Assembly (NCBI RefSeq): GCF_005871085.1 | Contig: NZ_VAUP01000042.1 | Span: 124,001 to 188,000 of the forward strand | Reading direction: 5' to 3' | Source of the DNA: Xanthobacter autotrophicus | Lineage (GTDB): Bacteria; Pseudomonadota; Alphaproteobacteria; Rhizobiales; Xanthobacteraceae | DNA length: 64,000 nt | Shown here: one piece after another, positions 43,840-55,931 of the stretch | Layout: each line of letters opens with the position of its first letter | Numbering within the stretch: the stretch's first letter is position 1 | The notes under the pieces: model-generated | Databases searched by the model: none | Told to the model about the DNA's origin: nothing | The model's input: the letters and a program-made list of their open reading frames with translations, nothing else | Translations under genes and position numbers: made by a program

Positions 43840-45939
43840 TCACCCCTCGAATGAAACCGACCTGAGCGGATAGGGCGTTGTCGGCAAGACCTTCAGGCGC
43901 TTGTTCCAGTCCCGGCTTGATCGGTCGGGTAGCTCACAGACACCTTCCGCATAAGTATCCACGCTGCGCAGCAGAAATCTCGCGCGCTCGACTTCGCCAG
44001 AGGTGTGGAGATCCCCTGCGTCGCGGAGCACCATATAGCCGTAGACTTGTCGATTATCCAAATACTGTGGAACGCCGAGCCGGCGCGCGCTTTCCGAAAA
44101 AATAACGTAAGGATGGCGCGCGGTTGCGTCCTCGCCGGACAGCCCCTCCCGCACATCCGTGCGGACAAGATAACAGCCGTTGACGACCGGCTGCTCCAGA
44201 ATACCACGCACCTGTTGCCCCAGGATCAGGGAATATAGATCAGATTCCTTGAAGTATCCGTTCGCATCGATCTGCGAATGATAGTTTGAATAGGGGTTGC
44301 CCGGCTCCACCGAGCGCAGGAAGGGGGCGACGATGGGCAGATCGAGCGCCACCAATTCCCGCAGCGTGCAAGGTCGCACGAAGTGGCCCACATCCGCTAT
44401 GAAGCAGAAATCGCAGGCATTTTCCTCCGCGCGGTCCAAGCAGCCGTTGCGGACCTGCCCGAGACGGCGAGCCCGCTCCAACTCCCGCTCCAACTCCCGC
44501 TCATGGCCCCCGAGCGGTCTGGCGTGCCCTTCCACATCATCGCATTCAAACTCCACCCCGGCGTAGAGGTCACCGTTCCGTTCGACCCATTCGCGCAGGA
44601 GGCGCTCGGTTCCGTCCGTGCTGTCGCAGGCATGGATATGGAGGACGATGGCCGATTTCGGATAGTCCAACGCTTCGATGCACTCCAGATACAGGGGCAG
44701 AACCGCCTCCTTCTGGCTCGCCAGTATGGCGACGAGCACGCGCGGCTCCCCCTTCACGCGGGACCTAAGCGCCCGCTGCGGCCGCAGCCCGTGCAGCTCG
44801 GCCAAGCTTTCGGCGGCGGAAGCCCCCGGAAGGGGGCCGCGTGGCAGGCCCTCGCTGGCGAGGCGCGCATTTTCCACCACCCGCGCCATATCCTCCGCCG
44901 AAAGCTTCGCCGTGGTGAGGATCTTCAGACTGGCATCAAGGCTCTCCCGCTTGCGCCCGGAGTGATACGCATTGACCGAAAATTCATCCAGGAGCCCGTG
45001 CCCGTAGATCCACGGTTCCACGAACAAGGCGTCTGTCGGCAACGGGATGGCCAGTCCGCGCCTGGCGATTTGATATCCCTCGTCATGGCGCCCCTTGTGG
45101 CGGCAGAATCGGCTGGCGTTGTGCAGGGCTTCGGCGCGCGTGGGCAGCGCATCGCTGGCACGAAGGTAGGCGTCGATGACCTCCCGCTCGGGGCGTCCAA
45201 GCTGTTCCTTCAACTGCGCGGCCGCATAGAGGCTGATGAAAACCTCCTCCTGCCAGAAGCCGAGCTCGGCCCGCAGCAGGTAGTTTTCCAGTGCCTTTTC
45301 GCGGTCCCTGCAATCGCGATAGCTTTGCGCCAGATAAAACCGGTAGCGTGCGATCAGGAAGGGATTGGTCTCGGTCCGCAATGCAGCTTCCAGAATGGTC
45401 ACATCGCGCCGGTATGTCGTCGGATCCTTCCTGCGGGCGCCATCATTGTTGCGCCGCATCGTAATTTCGGACAAGCGCCCGTGGGGAGCGGCACCCTCGC
45501 AGGTGAGGTATTCGTGCAGCACCCCCTCGTAGCGCCAGGGCAGTGCGCTGCGCACCAGTTGCGGGCGCTGGTAGACGATGGTGGCATCGTTGATCGTCAC
45601 CATGTAGGAATCGCCGGTCAGCGCGGGCAAGGCGCCATCGCCGTTGATTTCCAGCGTGTCGTCGGCATCGATGATGAAAGTGTAATCACCCTTCCCGCGC
45701 GCCAGTGCCAGAGCTTCCGAACGGTTGTGCGCGAAATCCCGCCATGGCCGCTCGTGCAACTCGCCGGGCAGATCTTTCAGATGCGCGCGGATAATGTCCT
45801 GCGTCCCGTCGGTCGATCCTGTATCCACGATCACCCAGCGATCGATGATCGGGCGCACGCTGTCCAGACACCGACGAATGACTTCGGCCTCGTCCTTGAC
45901 GATCATGTTCAGACAGACCATCTGACCTGCAGCGTTCAT
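43840..45939 (-). CDS. Two-domain glycosyltransferase with procollagen galactosyltransferase-like C-terminus
   Basis: 699 residues. About 1-130 is a GT2 domain (CLNMIVKDEAEVIRRCLDSV, DTGSTDGT, DxD in FIIDADDTLE). About 180-400 is helical, TPR-like. About 405-690 is a second transferase (VLVAILASQKEAVLPLYLEC, LDYPKSAIVL, PIVAPFLRS, YSNYHSQIDANGYFK) whose order of motifs matches animal COLGALT as I remember it. Its DVD-like motif reads ADVGH, lacking the second Asp. ATG 45939 follows GGAGG; the longer upstream frame is not homologous. Four kilobases or more from the collagen-like gene on the same strand, it is the obvious candidate to glycosylate the Thr-rich collagen. Acceptor and sugar are inference. 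Confidence 0.85.
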   Translation of the reverse strand: MNAAGQMVCLNMIVKDEAEVIRRCLDSVRPIIDRWVIVDTGSTDGTQDIIRAHLKDLPGELHERPWRDFAHNRSEALALARGKGDYTFIIDADDTLEINGDGALPALTGDSYMVTINDATIVYQRPQLVRSALPWRYEGVLHEYLTCEGAAPHGRLSEITMRRNNDGARRKDPTTYRRDVTILEAALRTETNPFLIARYRFYLAQSYRDCRDREKALENYLLRAELGFWQEEVFISLYAAAQLKEQLGRPEREVIDAYLRASDALPTRAEALHNASRFCRHKGRHDEGYQIARRGLAIPLPTDALFVEPWIYGHGLLDEFSVNAYHSGRKRESLDASLKILTTAKLSAEDMARVVENARLASEGLPRGPLPGASAAESLAELHGLRPQRALRSRVKGEPRVLVAILASQKEAVLPLYLECIEALDYPKSAIVLHIHACDSTDGTERLLREWVERNGDLYAGVEFECDDVEGHARPLGGHERELERELERARRLGQVRNGCLDRAEENACDFCFIADVGHFVRPCTLRELVALDLPIVAPFLRSVEPGNPYSNYHSQIDANGYFKESDLYSLILGQQVRGILEQPVVNGCYLVRTDVREGLSGEDATARHPYVIFSESARRLGVPQYLDNRQVYGYMVLRDAGDLHTSGEVERARFLLRSVDTYAEGVCELPDRSSRDWNKRLKVLPTTPYPLRSVSFEG

Positions 45940-46019
45940 CGAACGTCCTCCGCGTGCAGGACCGGCGGCGCGCCTGATCCCGATGAAAGGGATTTTTCCA
46001 TGCCAGTCGCAGGCCGACC

Positions 46020-46901
46020 ATGAAACGACGCTGCTTTCTGTCCCTGCTGGGGGCTGGCCTGCTTCTGCCCATCCGGCGGGCGCTGGCATGGACCAGGCCC
46101 AGCGAGGTGGTGCCCGGCGAAACCGATCTGCTCGGTGCCCGGCTTCAGCTTGGCGGCGACTGGGGCGGTTCGACGCCGGCGGACGCCAGCGTGGTGATCG
46201 GGAGCATGCGGGCTGGTTGCCTGGGGGGCGTGGCGCTTGTCTCCGACGCCCAGCCCAAGCGGCTGCGGATCGACAACAAGACCGGCAAAAACCCTTCCGT
46301 GTGGCTGCATTCCGGCAATTCGACCACGGCCTGGGTCACCGTCATCGTCGGCACCCGCGACTGGTGCAACCTTGCCTATCAGTTCGGACACGAACTGGGA
46401 CATGTGCTCTGCAACAGCTGGGAGCGCAATGCCAAGCCGCGCAACCCCTGCCAGTGGCTTGAGGAAGCACTGGCCGAGGCTTTCACCCTGCGGGGGCTGG
46501 GGCGCATGGCCGACGGGTGGGCGCGCAGCCCCCCGTTCCCGAACGATGCCGCCTATGCCACGTCCATCCGAGACTACCGGGAAACCCTCCTCGCCGGCTA
46601 TCGGACCACGGCGCTGGCCCAGGGCATGGCGGCCGGCTTCCCGGCCTGGTTCGCCGCCCATGACGTATTCTTCGAAACGCACGGCGGTCTCGACGACGCC
46701 AAGGGGGCGGTGTCGACCATGCTCGGCCTGCTGGAGGATGATGCGGACGCGGTTGCCGACCTTGGAGCCCTGAACCGCTGGCCGGGGCGCAGCGGCATCC
46801 CCCTGCCCGACTATCTCGACCGGTGGGAGGAAAGCTGCGCGCAATTGGGCGCGCCCAACCGGTTGCCAGGGAAAATAAGGGCACTGCTCGCCAACCGGTA
46901 G
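46020..46901 (+). CDS. Exported zinc metallopeptidase-like protein (HExxH)
   Basis: 293 residues. Short leader with RR pair (MKRRCFLSLLGAGLLLP, cleavage probably after ALA), so exported, possibly by Tat. The zinc site is FGHELGHVLCNSWERN followed by the downstream Glu in WLEEALAEAF, a gluzincin-like HExxH-E arrangement. Four Cys are in the mature part (GCLG, WCNL, VLCN, NPCQ, SCAQ include odd counts, so pairing is uncertain). It diverges from the glycosyltransferase gene (80 bases) within the collagen locus, and might process or release the exported protein; that is inference. Confidence 0.72.
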   Translation: MKRRCFLSLLGAGLLLPIRRALAWTRPSEVVPGETDLLGARLQLGGDWGGSTPADASVVIGSMRAGCLGGVALVSDAQPKRLRIDNKTGKNPSVWLHSGNSTTAWVTVIVGTRDWCNLAYQFGHELGHVLCNSWERNAKPRNPCQWLEEALAEAFTLRGLGRMADGWARSPPFPNDAAYATSIRDYRETLLAGYRTTALAQGMAAGFPAWFAAHDVFFETHGGLDDAKGAVSTMLGLLEDDADAVADLGALNRWPGRSGIPLPDYLDRWEESCAQLGAPNRLPGKIRALLANR

Positions 46902-55504: not shown

Positions 55505-55598
55505 GACGTTTGACTCCTTTTGCGTTCCATCATTATTTGCCAAACATCTCAAGGCAATATTGAGCTAACGCTGATGGTGTCCGCTGATGGCTGGAGGT

Positions 55599-55931
55599 TC
55601 ACGCCGCCGGGGCGGCGGAAGCAGAGATCGCCGCGGGCCGATATCCCACGCTGGGCGAACATTGTTTTATGGTGATATCAGACAAAACGACTTTGCCATC
55701 CCGATCGCCAGTAACGACGATACTGTCGGCGGAGCAGTCGTTCGGCAGCGGGAAAACGACGCAAAACTGTCCCGCCTGGATGCCAGGGGGGGGATTACTT
55801 GCAGCCGGGACCACATGTCCGGATCCCACGAGAATGCGGTCGTCCTGGCCATGAGGACGACACCAGACAAAGGCGATATCGGCGCTGTCGTGCGGATCGA
55901 GACCCGAGACGCTGAAAAATGTGCCATTCAT
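55599..55931 (-). CDS. Small hypothetical protein upstream of the collagen-like gene
   Basis: 110 residues, no obvious signal peptide, mostly beta-strand-like (GTFFSVSGLDPHDSADIAFV, VFPLPNDCSADSIVVTG, KVVLSDITIKQCSP). Three Cys (VWCRP, FCVVF, DCSAD, QCSP give four). ATG 55931 follows GGAGG 10 bases upstream. It lies 94 bases upstream of the collagen-like gene on the same strand, so it is probably co-transcribed and may be a chaperone, cap or second cargo. I do not recognise a family. Confidence 0.6.
   Translation of the reverse strand: MNGTFFSVSGLDPHDSADIAFVWCRPHGQDDRILVGSGHVVPAASNPPPGIQAGQFCVVFPLPNDCSADSIVVTGDRDGKVVLSDITIKQCSPSVGYRPAAISASAAPAA

Follow-up and report, generated by a model that had tools for sequence, protein, structure and literature searches.

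We analysed a 64,000-nucleotide stretch of DNA from the soil bacterium Xanthobacter autotrophicus (contig NZ_VAUP01000042.1, positions 124,001 to 188,000; hereafter the window), which carries a gene for a collagen built of Gly-X-Thr (GXT) triplets beside genes for a type I secretion ATP-binding cassette (ABC) transporter, an HlyD-family adaptor, a Sel1-repeat protein, a protein with an HExxH motif and a 699-residue glycosyltransferase (GT), part of which resembles the animal collagen galactosyltransferase COLGALT1 (Table 1). A sequence-only reading of the same DNA had named all of these neighbours and they were found where it had placed them, as was the 842-residue collagen, whose triplets it had put at about 207 and for which our exact count was 206. 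A further gene which it had not named, predicted to encode a 121-residue protein, belongs to the conserved block, with homologues in the same place in related loci (73% identity in L033, 48% in L034 and 39% in L041).

The collagen gene is predicted to encode a collagen poor in proline, in which Y is Thr without exception (206/206 in-register triplets). The X position is taken by Ala (n = 135), Glu (n = 46), Ser (n = 11), Pro (n = 10) or Val (n = 4), and Lys is absent from both X and Y throughout the 206 triplets. No G.T run longer than 2 arose when 842-residue sequences were drawn at random 1000 times from four proteins of the locus, and the gene scored above the PF01391 (collagen) cut-off in a search of its own genome, so the collagen repeat is not a chance feature. 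Eight G-I-G breaks divide the triplets into runs of 67, 12, 10, 10, 12, 11, 12, 11 and 61; seven of the runs set off in this way between 53309 and 55210 are 10–12 triplets long. Comparable breaks were seen in the collagens of L033 (19, GV/GI), L034 (17, GI) and L037 (one) and there were none in the first run of the L085 collagen, so breaks recur in some relatives only. The N-terminal head of the collagen (ColN) was 47–91% identical across 4 relatives and, among 397 genomes sampled from the order, its profile matched 7, while Pfam holds no family for this head or for the 121-residue protein. Hydropathy revealed no leader-like hydrophobic stretch in the collagen.

Table 1 Features of the collagen locus, in coordinates of the window
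Feature	Position	Strand	Basis
Crp/Fnr-type regulator, possible regulator	43002..43703	+	conserved neighbour in L033 (80%) and L034 (60%)
Glycosyltransferase (GT), 699 residues: GT2, TPR-like helices and COLGALT GalT-N-like domain	43840..45939	-	Pfam, phmmer, AlphaFold2/Foldseek
COLGALT GalT-N / LH3 AC-like domain, GT residues 396–640	44020..44754	-	homology; active-site-like motifs decayed
Putatively exported HExxH (HELGH) protein, 293 residues, N-terminus Tat-like by eye	46020..46901	+	alignment with 8 relatives (five from Mesorhizobium)
Sel1-repeat protein, 607 residues, probably cytoplasmic	47127..48950	-	PF08238, E = 1.1e−71, eight stretches; no hydrophobic leader
HlyD-family type I secretion adaptor	48954..50360	-	TIGR01843, 303.9 bits (cut-off 208.65)
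HlyB-type ABC transporter with cysteine-free N-terminal region (C39-like by position)	50314..52863	-	domain and family scans
GXT collagen, 842 residues	52976..55504	-	ATG at 55504, stop at 52976; PF01391 above cut-off
Collagen, non-collagenous C-terminal tail ending Leu-Lys-His	52976..53308	-	[KR]H end common to exporter-linked collagens
Collagen, Gly-X-Thr region, 206 triplets and eight G-I-G breaks	53309..55210	-	triplet count
Collagen, N-terminal head ColN, 98 residues	55211..55504	-	kept in relatives; no Pfam match
Small protein, 121 residues, upstream of collagen	55599..55964	-	same-place homologues; no Pfam match; no signal-peptide-like stretch

Domains and relatives of the glycosyltransferase

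Residues 12–97 of the GT were assigned to GT2 (PF00535, E = 2.9e−12), with the D-x-D of this family present as D-A-D within a conserved IIDADD stretch. The solved proteins nearest to this half (phmmer against PDB) were GmaR (E = 6.1e−12), a polypeptide-modifying enzyme, and SunS (E = 3.3e−7), which the title of its structure names as one; the window GT did not reach the cut-off of the SunS equivalog TIGR04195 (32.4 bits against 350). In the same type of search residues 398–638 matched the N-terminal domain of COLGALT1 (E = 8.6e−17) and residues 398–639 matched LH3 at about residues 272–496 (E = 1.5e−8). A five-sequence profile of this C-terminal half (C-half) gave E values of 3e−31 for COLGALT1 and 1.4e−16 for LH3, with mimivirus R699 matching part of it only (3.7e−7). 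An AlphaFold2 model was made from 15 aligned sequences (mean predicted local distance difference test, pLDDT, 74.6), in which helices at residues 173–364 follow the GT2 fold. Foldseek comparison of this model to PDB returned SunS first (E = 6.8e−15, 383 columns), followed by COLGALT1 (4.4e−14), the SunS-like ThuS (3.7e−13) and LH3 (5.0e−11). The resemblance of the C-half to COLGALT is true homology, by sequence and by predicted fold.

By its domain matches, the part of COLGALT1 to which the C-half corresponds is GalT-N (AC in LH3) and not GT25. Assignment of the C-half as a GT25 domain was ruled out, as a Pfam scan found no PF01755 (the catalytic GT25, GalT-C domain) in the window GT; the two PF01755 matches in its own genome are both on contig C13. 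An ordinary GT2 or Anp1 enzyme was also ruled out for this half, with Anp1 at 21.4 bits against a cut-off of 28.8 and COLGALT1 by far the best solved match. Anp1 was above cut-off in six of the nine two-part homologues scanned (L043, L044, L048, L056, L084 and L088). Hydropathy showed no leader-like hydrophobic stretch in the GT.

We compared conservation of the two halves in an alignment of 15 sequences (A4), in which invariant columns were defined on the 12 rows that remain when the window, L050 (X. autotrophicus) and L047 (Blastochloris) are set aside; five of these 12 reference rows are from Mesorhizobium. There were 76 invariant columns in the N-half and 75 in the C-half, from which the window differs at 2 and 16 positions respectively, L050 at 2 and 15, and L047 at 0 and 19. 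The changes in the C-half affect the motifs R-T-N-N-N-T-D, H-E-W, D-x-D-N and V-x-H-C-T, and the D-x-D-N position reads A-D-V-G-H in the window, A-D-I-S-H in L050 and A-D-A-D-T in L047. Two exporter-type homologues lie outside A4: L036 retains the C-half motifs, and L037 retains D-L-D-N and has a gap at H-E-W. The ratio of nonsynonymous to synonymous substitution rates (dN/dS) between the window and L033 was 0.24 for the C-half and 0.12 for the N-half, and the C-half is under purifying selection between these two sequences.

Since it lacks D-x-D-N, N-N-N, H-E-W and V-x-H-C-T, the C-half of the window GT is probably not the transferase, and Thr glycosylation is more likely to be the work of the SunS/GmaR-type GT2 half with its TPR-like helices. 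In the lineage of the window the GalT-N-like domain can be read as having been kept for binding or structure after loss of its active site. The sequence-only reading had matched the C-half to the motif order of COLGALT. Its grouping with COLGALT and not with ordinary GT2 enzymes was borne out, but the homology is to the GalT-N/AC domain and the catalytic GT25 is absent, and for the transferase role the loss of active-site-like motifs makes the GT2 half the better candidate.

The homologues from Mesorhizobium (931–934 residues) carry PF01755 (GT25) behind the GalT-N-like domain, with E values of 1.3e−17, 6.4e−17 and 2.2e−16 in the three that were scanned out of five (L043, L044 and L048). Residues 404–890 of the L044 protein aligned to COLGALT1 in one piece across both domains (E = 1.3e−40), and for its tail alone the best solved match was still COLGALT1 (1.4e−6). 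The neighbouring GXT collagen has 1538 residues, a DUF4347 head and 367 triplets in its first run. On these domain assignments, Mesorhizobium has a complete predicted COLGALT domain pair encoded next to its collagens. A homologue on a Mesorhizobium ciceri megaplasmid (L131:2682-5483, NZ_CP015065.1) is annotated only as “glycosyltransferase family 25 protein” and adjoins a collagen frame which is cut by the start of the record.

Other homologues have a different third C-terminal module, namely a sulfotransferase in L049 (7.6e−7) and a methyltransferase in L084 (2.5e−8), and methyltransferase-type genes adjoin the GTs of L044 and L045. Such varied tailoring modules would be expected of an enzyme building a glycan on collagen. 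The GTs of L051 and L056 have long C-terminal tails without a Pfam match. We also found GT2-TPR proteins without the COLGALT-like half beside collagens (L038, L087 and L132). Among these, Cupriavidus metallidurans CH34 (L132) has a 400-residue collagen, with a leader which is lipoprotein-like by eye, within about 150 bp of the GT. In a Methylobacterium aquaticum homologue (L134), which lies beside a GXT-rich frame, a GT1-type and an FkbM domain take the place of the COLGALT-like half. The GT2-TPR-only relatives indicate that the constant parts are the GT2-TPR protein and the GXT collagen, with the export route and the extra domains varying. GT2 relatives were also seen on Citrobacter, Enterobacter and E. 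coli plasmids, and 117 plasmid records, mostly from Enterococcus, gave weaker matches to the query. In Methylobacterium sp. WSM2598 (L054:1312-3690) the collagen carries a fused Hint domain (PF13403, E = 3.9e−45), which suggests self-cleavage.

Collagen and exporter genes around related glycosyltransferases

We searched for GXT collagens within 12 kb of 22 loci with a two-part GT (window included), counting any run of six or more triplets with Thr in at least 40% of Y positions. A GXT collagen was found near 16 of the 22 loci, in every case within 8 kb; as the window had been chosen for its collagen, the count without it is also given (15/21). In 20 matched control stretches of 20 kb around GT2-only matches there was none (0/20; Fisher P about 9e−7, which treats the loci as independent, although they are not, five being from Mesorhizobium); G044, G034 and G028 were left out of the controls because their contigs are shorter than 10 kb. 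A narrower control with flanks of about 1.5 kb also gave 0/23, but only 4 of the 22 GT loci would score at that distance. The GT-collagen loci fall into about ten genus-level groups, by a grouping made in this analysis.

In the sample of the order, the C-half profile matched 14 of 397 genomes, nine of them strongly, and PF01391 was present in 9/9 of the strongly matching genomes compared to 151/388 of the others (Fisher P = 2.4e−4). These nine genomes have ten strong GT loci, of which G248 was left out because of a contig end, and eight of the remaining nine are near a collagen (seven of eight without the window), the miss being the second locus of G193. The corresponding P value is about 4e−8 (4e−7 without the window), as a rough bound which assumes 15 collagen sites per 4-Mb genome. 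In the phylum sample, which as listed consists of the window's own order, the C-half domain was found in 1 of 398 genomes, the window's own; the taxonomic breadth of the GT therefore rests on the other genome surveys.

The exporter is present in a subset of these loci. L033 has the order small protein, collagen, ABC, HlyD, Sel1, HExxH and GT, with 83–93% identity over the five larger proteins, and L034 has the same gene order as the window (62–80% identity). In L036 the order is the same as far as the collagen, at which the contig stops; L037 has no HExxH match and its small protein is located in the adjoining L041; L085 and L086, from two genomes of one genus, are two further exporter loci. 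Of the 22 loci with a two-part GT, seven combine it with ABC, HlyD and Sel1 genes; six of these seven have the collagen on that contig too, the contig of L086 starting at the ABC gene. Comparison of these loci shows that an HlyB/HlyD pair and a predicted leaderless GT (GT2, TPR-like helices and GalT-N-like domain) are conserved together with a collagen. The expectation of the sequence-only reading that the genes are kept together thus held for GT and collagen (16/22) but for the type I exporter in only 7/22. The widely travelling pair is the GT and the GXT collagen, and the exporter link is regional.

The ABC protein has both ABC_tran and ABC_membrane domains (Pfam) and no Cys in its first 280 residues, and hence no C39 peptidase cysteine. 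The genome also codes for a type I TolC, outside the locus (C1:400398; 313.5 bits against a cut-off of 225.15). The exporter-linked collagens end in Lys/Arg-His in 6/6 cases where the end lies on the contig, and the collagens of L044 and L054 have no such end. The HlyB-like ABC protein, the adaptor, TolC, the leaderless collagen and the [KR]H end fit a putative uncleaved C-terminal signal, none of them proving it. For the HExxH protein the predicted structure had a pLDDT of 53 and no PDB match with E < 0.001, and no Pfam family was found. A known defence system was ruled out, as PADLOC gave no match for the GT, HExxH or Sel1 protein. Promoter and terminator scans of the locus gave 2 sites (1.9 in shuffles) and 8 sites (6.9 in shuffles) respectively.

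Proposed function of the locus

We consider it on balance probable that this locus makes, decorates and exports a surface collagen, with the GT2 half glycosylating Thr, the GalT-N-like domain serving as a scaffold and HlyB/HlyD carrying out export. By analogy with SunS and SgtA, the GT2 domain would act in the cytoplasm on the still unfolded collagen, moving a sugar from a nucleotide sugar to its Thr hydroxyls, and the TPR-like helices and GalT-N-like domain would form a collagen-binding or dimerising scaffold. The GalT-N-like domain of the window lineage would be a pseudoenzyme, as described for the animal domains: in COLGALT1, GalT-C is reported to be the catalytic domain and GalT-N a dormant scaffold, which the AC domain of LH3 resembles, being itself inactive (2026 J Biol Chem, PMC13382579). 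The modified chain would then leave through HlyB/HlyD and the TolC encoded elsewhere, by way of an uncleaved C-terminal signal, and fold into a triple helix outside the cell. With Pro in only 10/206 triplets, the Thr sugars may replace the stabilising role of hydroxyproline. In the open literature we found no usable paper on Thr-linked sugar stabilising collagen. It is from the predicted genes and their homologies that we infer glycosylation and secretion of the collagen by the window locus.

Several observations weigh against this reading. Six of the 22 GT loci have no GXT collagen (L046, L049, L086, L053, L052 and L084). Flanks are short in some of these (L046 has 1.2 kb upstream, L049 is on a 3.3-kb contig, L086 is at a contig end and L053 has 1.3 kb downstream), but the flanks of L052 and L084 are long enough, on at least one side, for these two to weigh against the link, and a nearby contig end does not by itself account for the misses of L052, L053 and L084. 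A Citrobacter plasmid relative of the GT2-TPR protein lies beside an autotransporter (L133:4915-9191), so this half does not go with collagen exclusively. In 15 of the 22 GT loci, some of which are incomplete, no such exporter was seen, and it is thus not the only route; the full-length GT was found in 2 of 14 genomes of the same genus (G000 and G006 of G000–G013), which makes the locus patchy within the genus. The ABC protein is below the cut-off of its best family, TIGR01846 (HlyB; 510.9 bits against 725.55), and of the LssB family (471.3 against 693.1), and the collagen has no visible RTX repeat. In the GT model, pLDDT is below 50 at residues 367–392 and in parts of the C-domain. The dormancy of GalT-N is itself not beyond doubt, as mutagenesis in 2011 found the N-domain DXD of COLGALT1 (D166/D168) to be essential, the D166A/D168A protein being inactive (PMC3244457).

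It is rather unlikely that the exporter serves another substrate, such as the 121-residue protein, with the collagen leaving otherwise or staying inside the cell. The absence of the exporter from view in most GT-collagen loci, the lipoprotein-like collagen of C. metallidurans and the missing RTX signal would agree with this, but the exporter adjoins the collagen in six of the seven exporter loci (the seventh contig starting at the ABC gene) and the exporter-linked collagens share both head and tail. Activity of both GT halves, the GT2 half starting the glycan on Thr and the COLGALT-like half extending it by a second, galactose-like sugar, seems to us quite improbable for the window. The D-x-D-N of the C-half is kept in 12 of the 15 A4 homologues and the COLGALT1 double mutant is inactive (PMC3244457), but inactivity is reported for both solved homologues, GalT-N and AC (PMC13382579). 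With A-D-V-G-H in place of D-x-D-N and without N-N-N, H-E-W and V-x-H-C-T in the window, this explanation fits most relatives better than the window itself. That the GT builds surface polysaccharide or lipopolysaccharide beside the collagen by coincidence is very unlikely: GT2 and Anp1-type domains are common in glycan synthesis, but a GXT collagen lies within 8 kb in 16/22 loci of about ten genus-level groups as opposed to 0/20 controls, and the closest solved relatives are described as protein-modifying (SunS, GmaR, COLGALT1 and LH3).

If the locus does make, glycosylate and export a collagen as proposed, it would allow the glycosylation of collagen to be studied in a bacterial model with simple genetics. 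It would also offer an enzyme family expected to glycosylate Thr of Gly-X-Thr collagens, with stable recombinant collagens without hydroxyproline in prospect, and independent evidence on the purpose of the reportedly inactive GalT-N (COLGALT1) and AC (LH3) domains. The homology suggests that the machinery for coating collagen with sugars may be related in part between bacteria and animals. A wider proposal, which we regard as doubtful and put forward tentatively, is that one lineage of collagen-glycosylation enzymes is common to bacteria and animals, with GalT-N an ancient collagen-recognition scaffold. The GalT-N plus GT25 design, found in COLGALT1 and, behind a Thr-directed GT2 and next to a collagen gene, in Mesorhizobium, would have moved between domains of life or been inherited from a shared source, and the window would keep the scaffold after decay of its active site.

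Comparison with known systems

The GT2 half of the window GT resembles both SunS and GmaR in sequence, and SunS also in the fold of GT2 and helices. SunS glycosylates sublancin in the cytoplasm before ABC export by SunT. The cargo there is a small bacteriocin and here a long collagen, and the transporter of the window has no Cys in its N-terminal region.

Openly available PubMed Central text yielded no paper in which a COLGALT-like enzyme of bacteria is combined with a collagen and an exporter, and to this extent the combination is undescribed, as the sequence-only reading had held; a collagen with an adjacent Thr glycosyltransferase is, however, already known. In Clostridioides difficile, SgtA is encoded immediately upstream of bclA3 and is reported to transfer beta-O-GlcNAc onto Thr of collagen-repeat peptides in a Mn-dependent reaction (PMC7157674). 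As in the window, a glycosyltransferase gene is next to a collagen gene, and in SgtA/BclA3 it is the Thr of the collagen repeats which is modified; compared by description, BclA3 differs in being a spore-surface protein, and the available part of that paper mentions no COLGALT-like domain or type I exporter (PMC7157674). BclA of Bacillus is likewise reported to be glycosylated, and Thr is given as frequent in Y in bacteria, at 31.6% (PMC8968730). Modification of collagen outside animals is also described for mimivirus, whose L230 both hydroxylates and glucosylates the lysine of collagen (PMC9614988) and whose R699 matches part of the C-half profile. Unlike the window GT, L230 is viral and acts on lysine/hydroxylysine, and the available part of its description includes no GT2-TPR half or exporter (PMC9614988).

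Closest to the C-half are COLGALT1 (GLT25D1) and LH3, in which GalT-N and AC respectively are homologous to residues 398–638, and the Mesorhizobium relatives share with COLGALT1 the order of a GalT-N-like domain followed by GT25. The window GT differs from the animal enzymes in having no GT25, in its extra GT2-TPR half and in its predicted location, which is cytoplasmic (no leader) and not in the endoplasmic reticulum. Since there is no Lys in the GXT region, the COLGALT reaction on hydroxylysine is impossible there, and the acceptor would be Thr.

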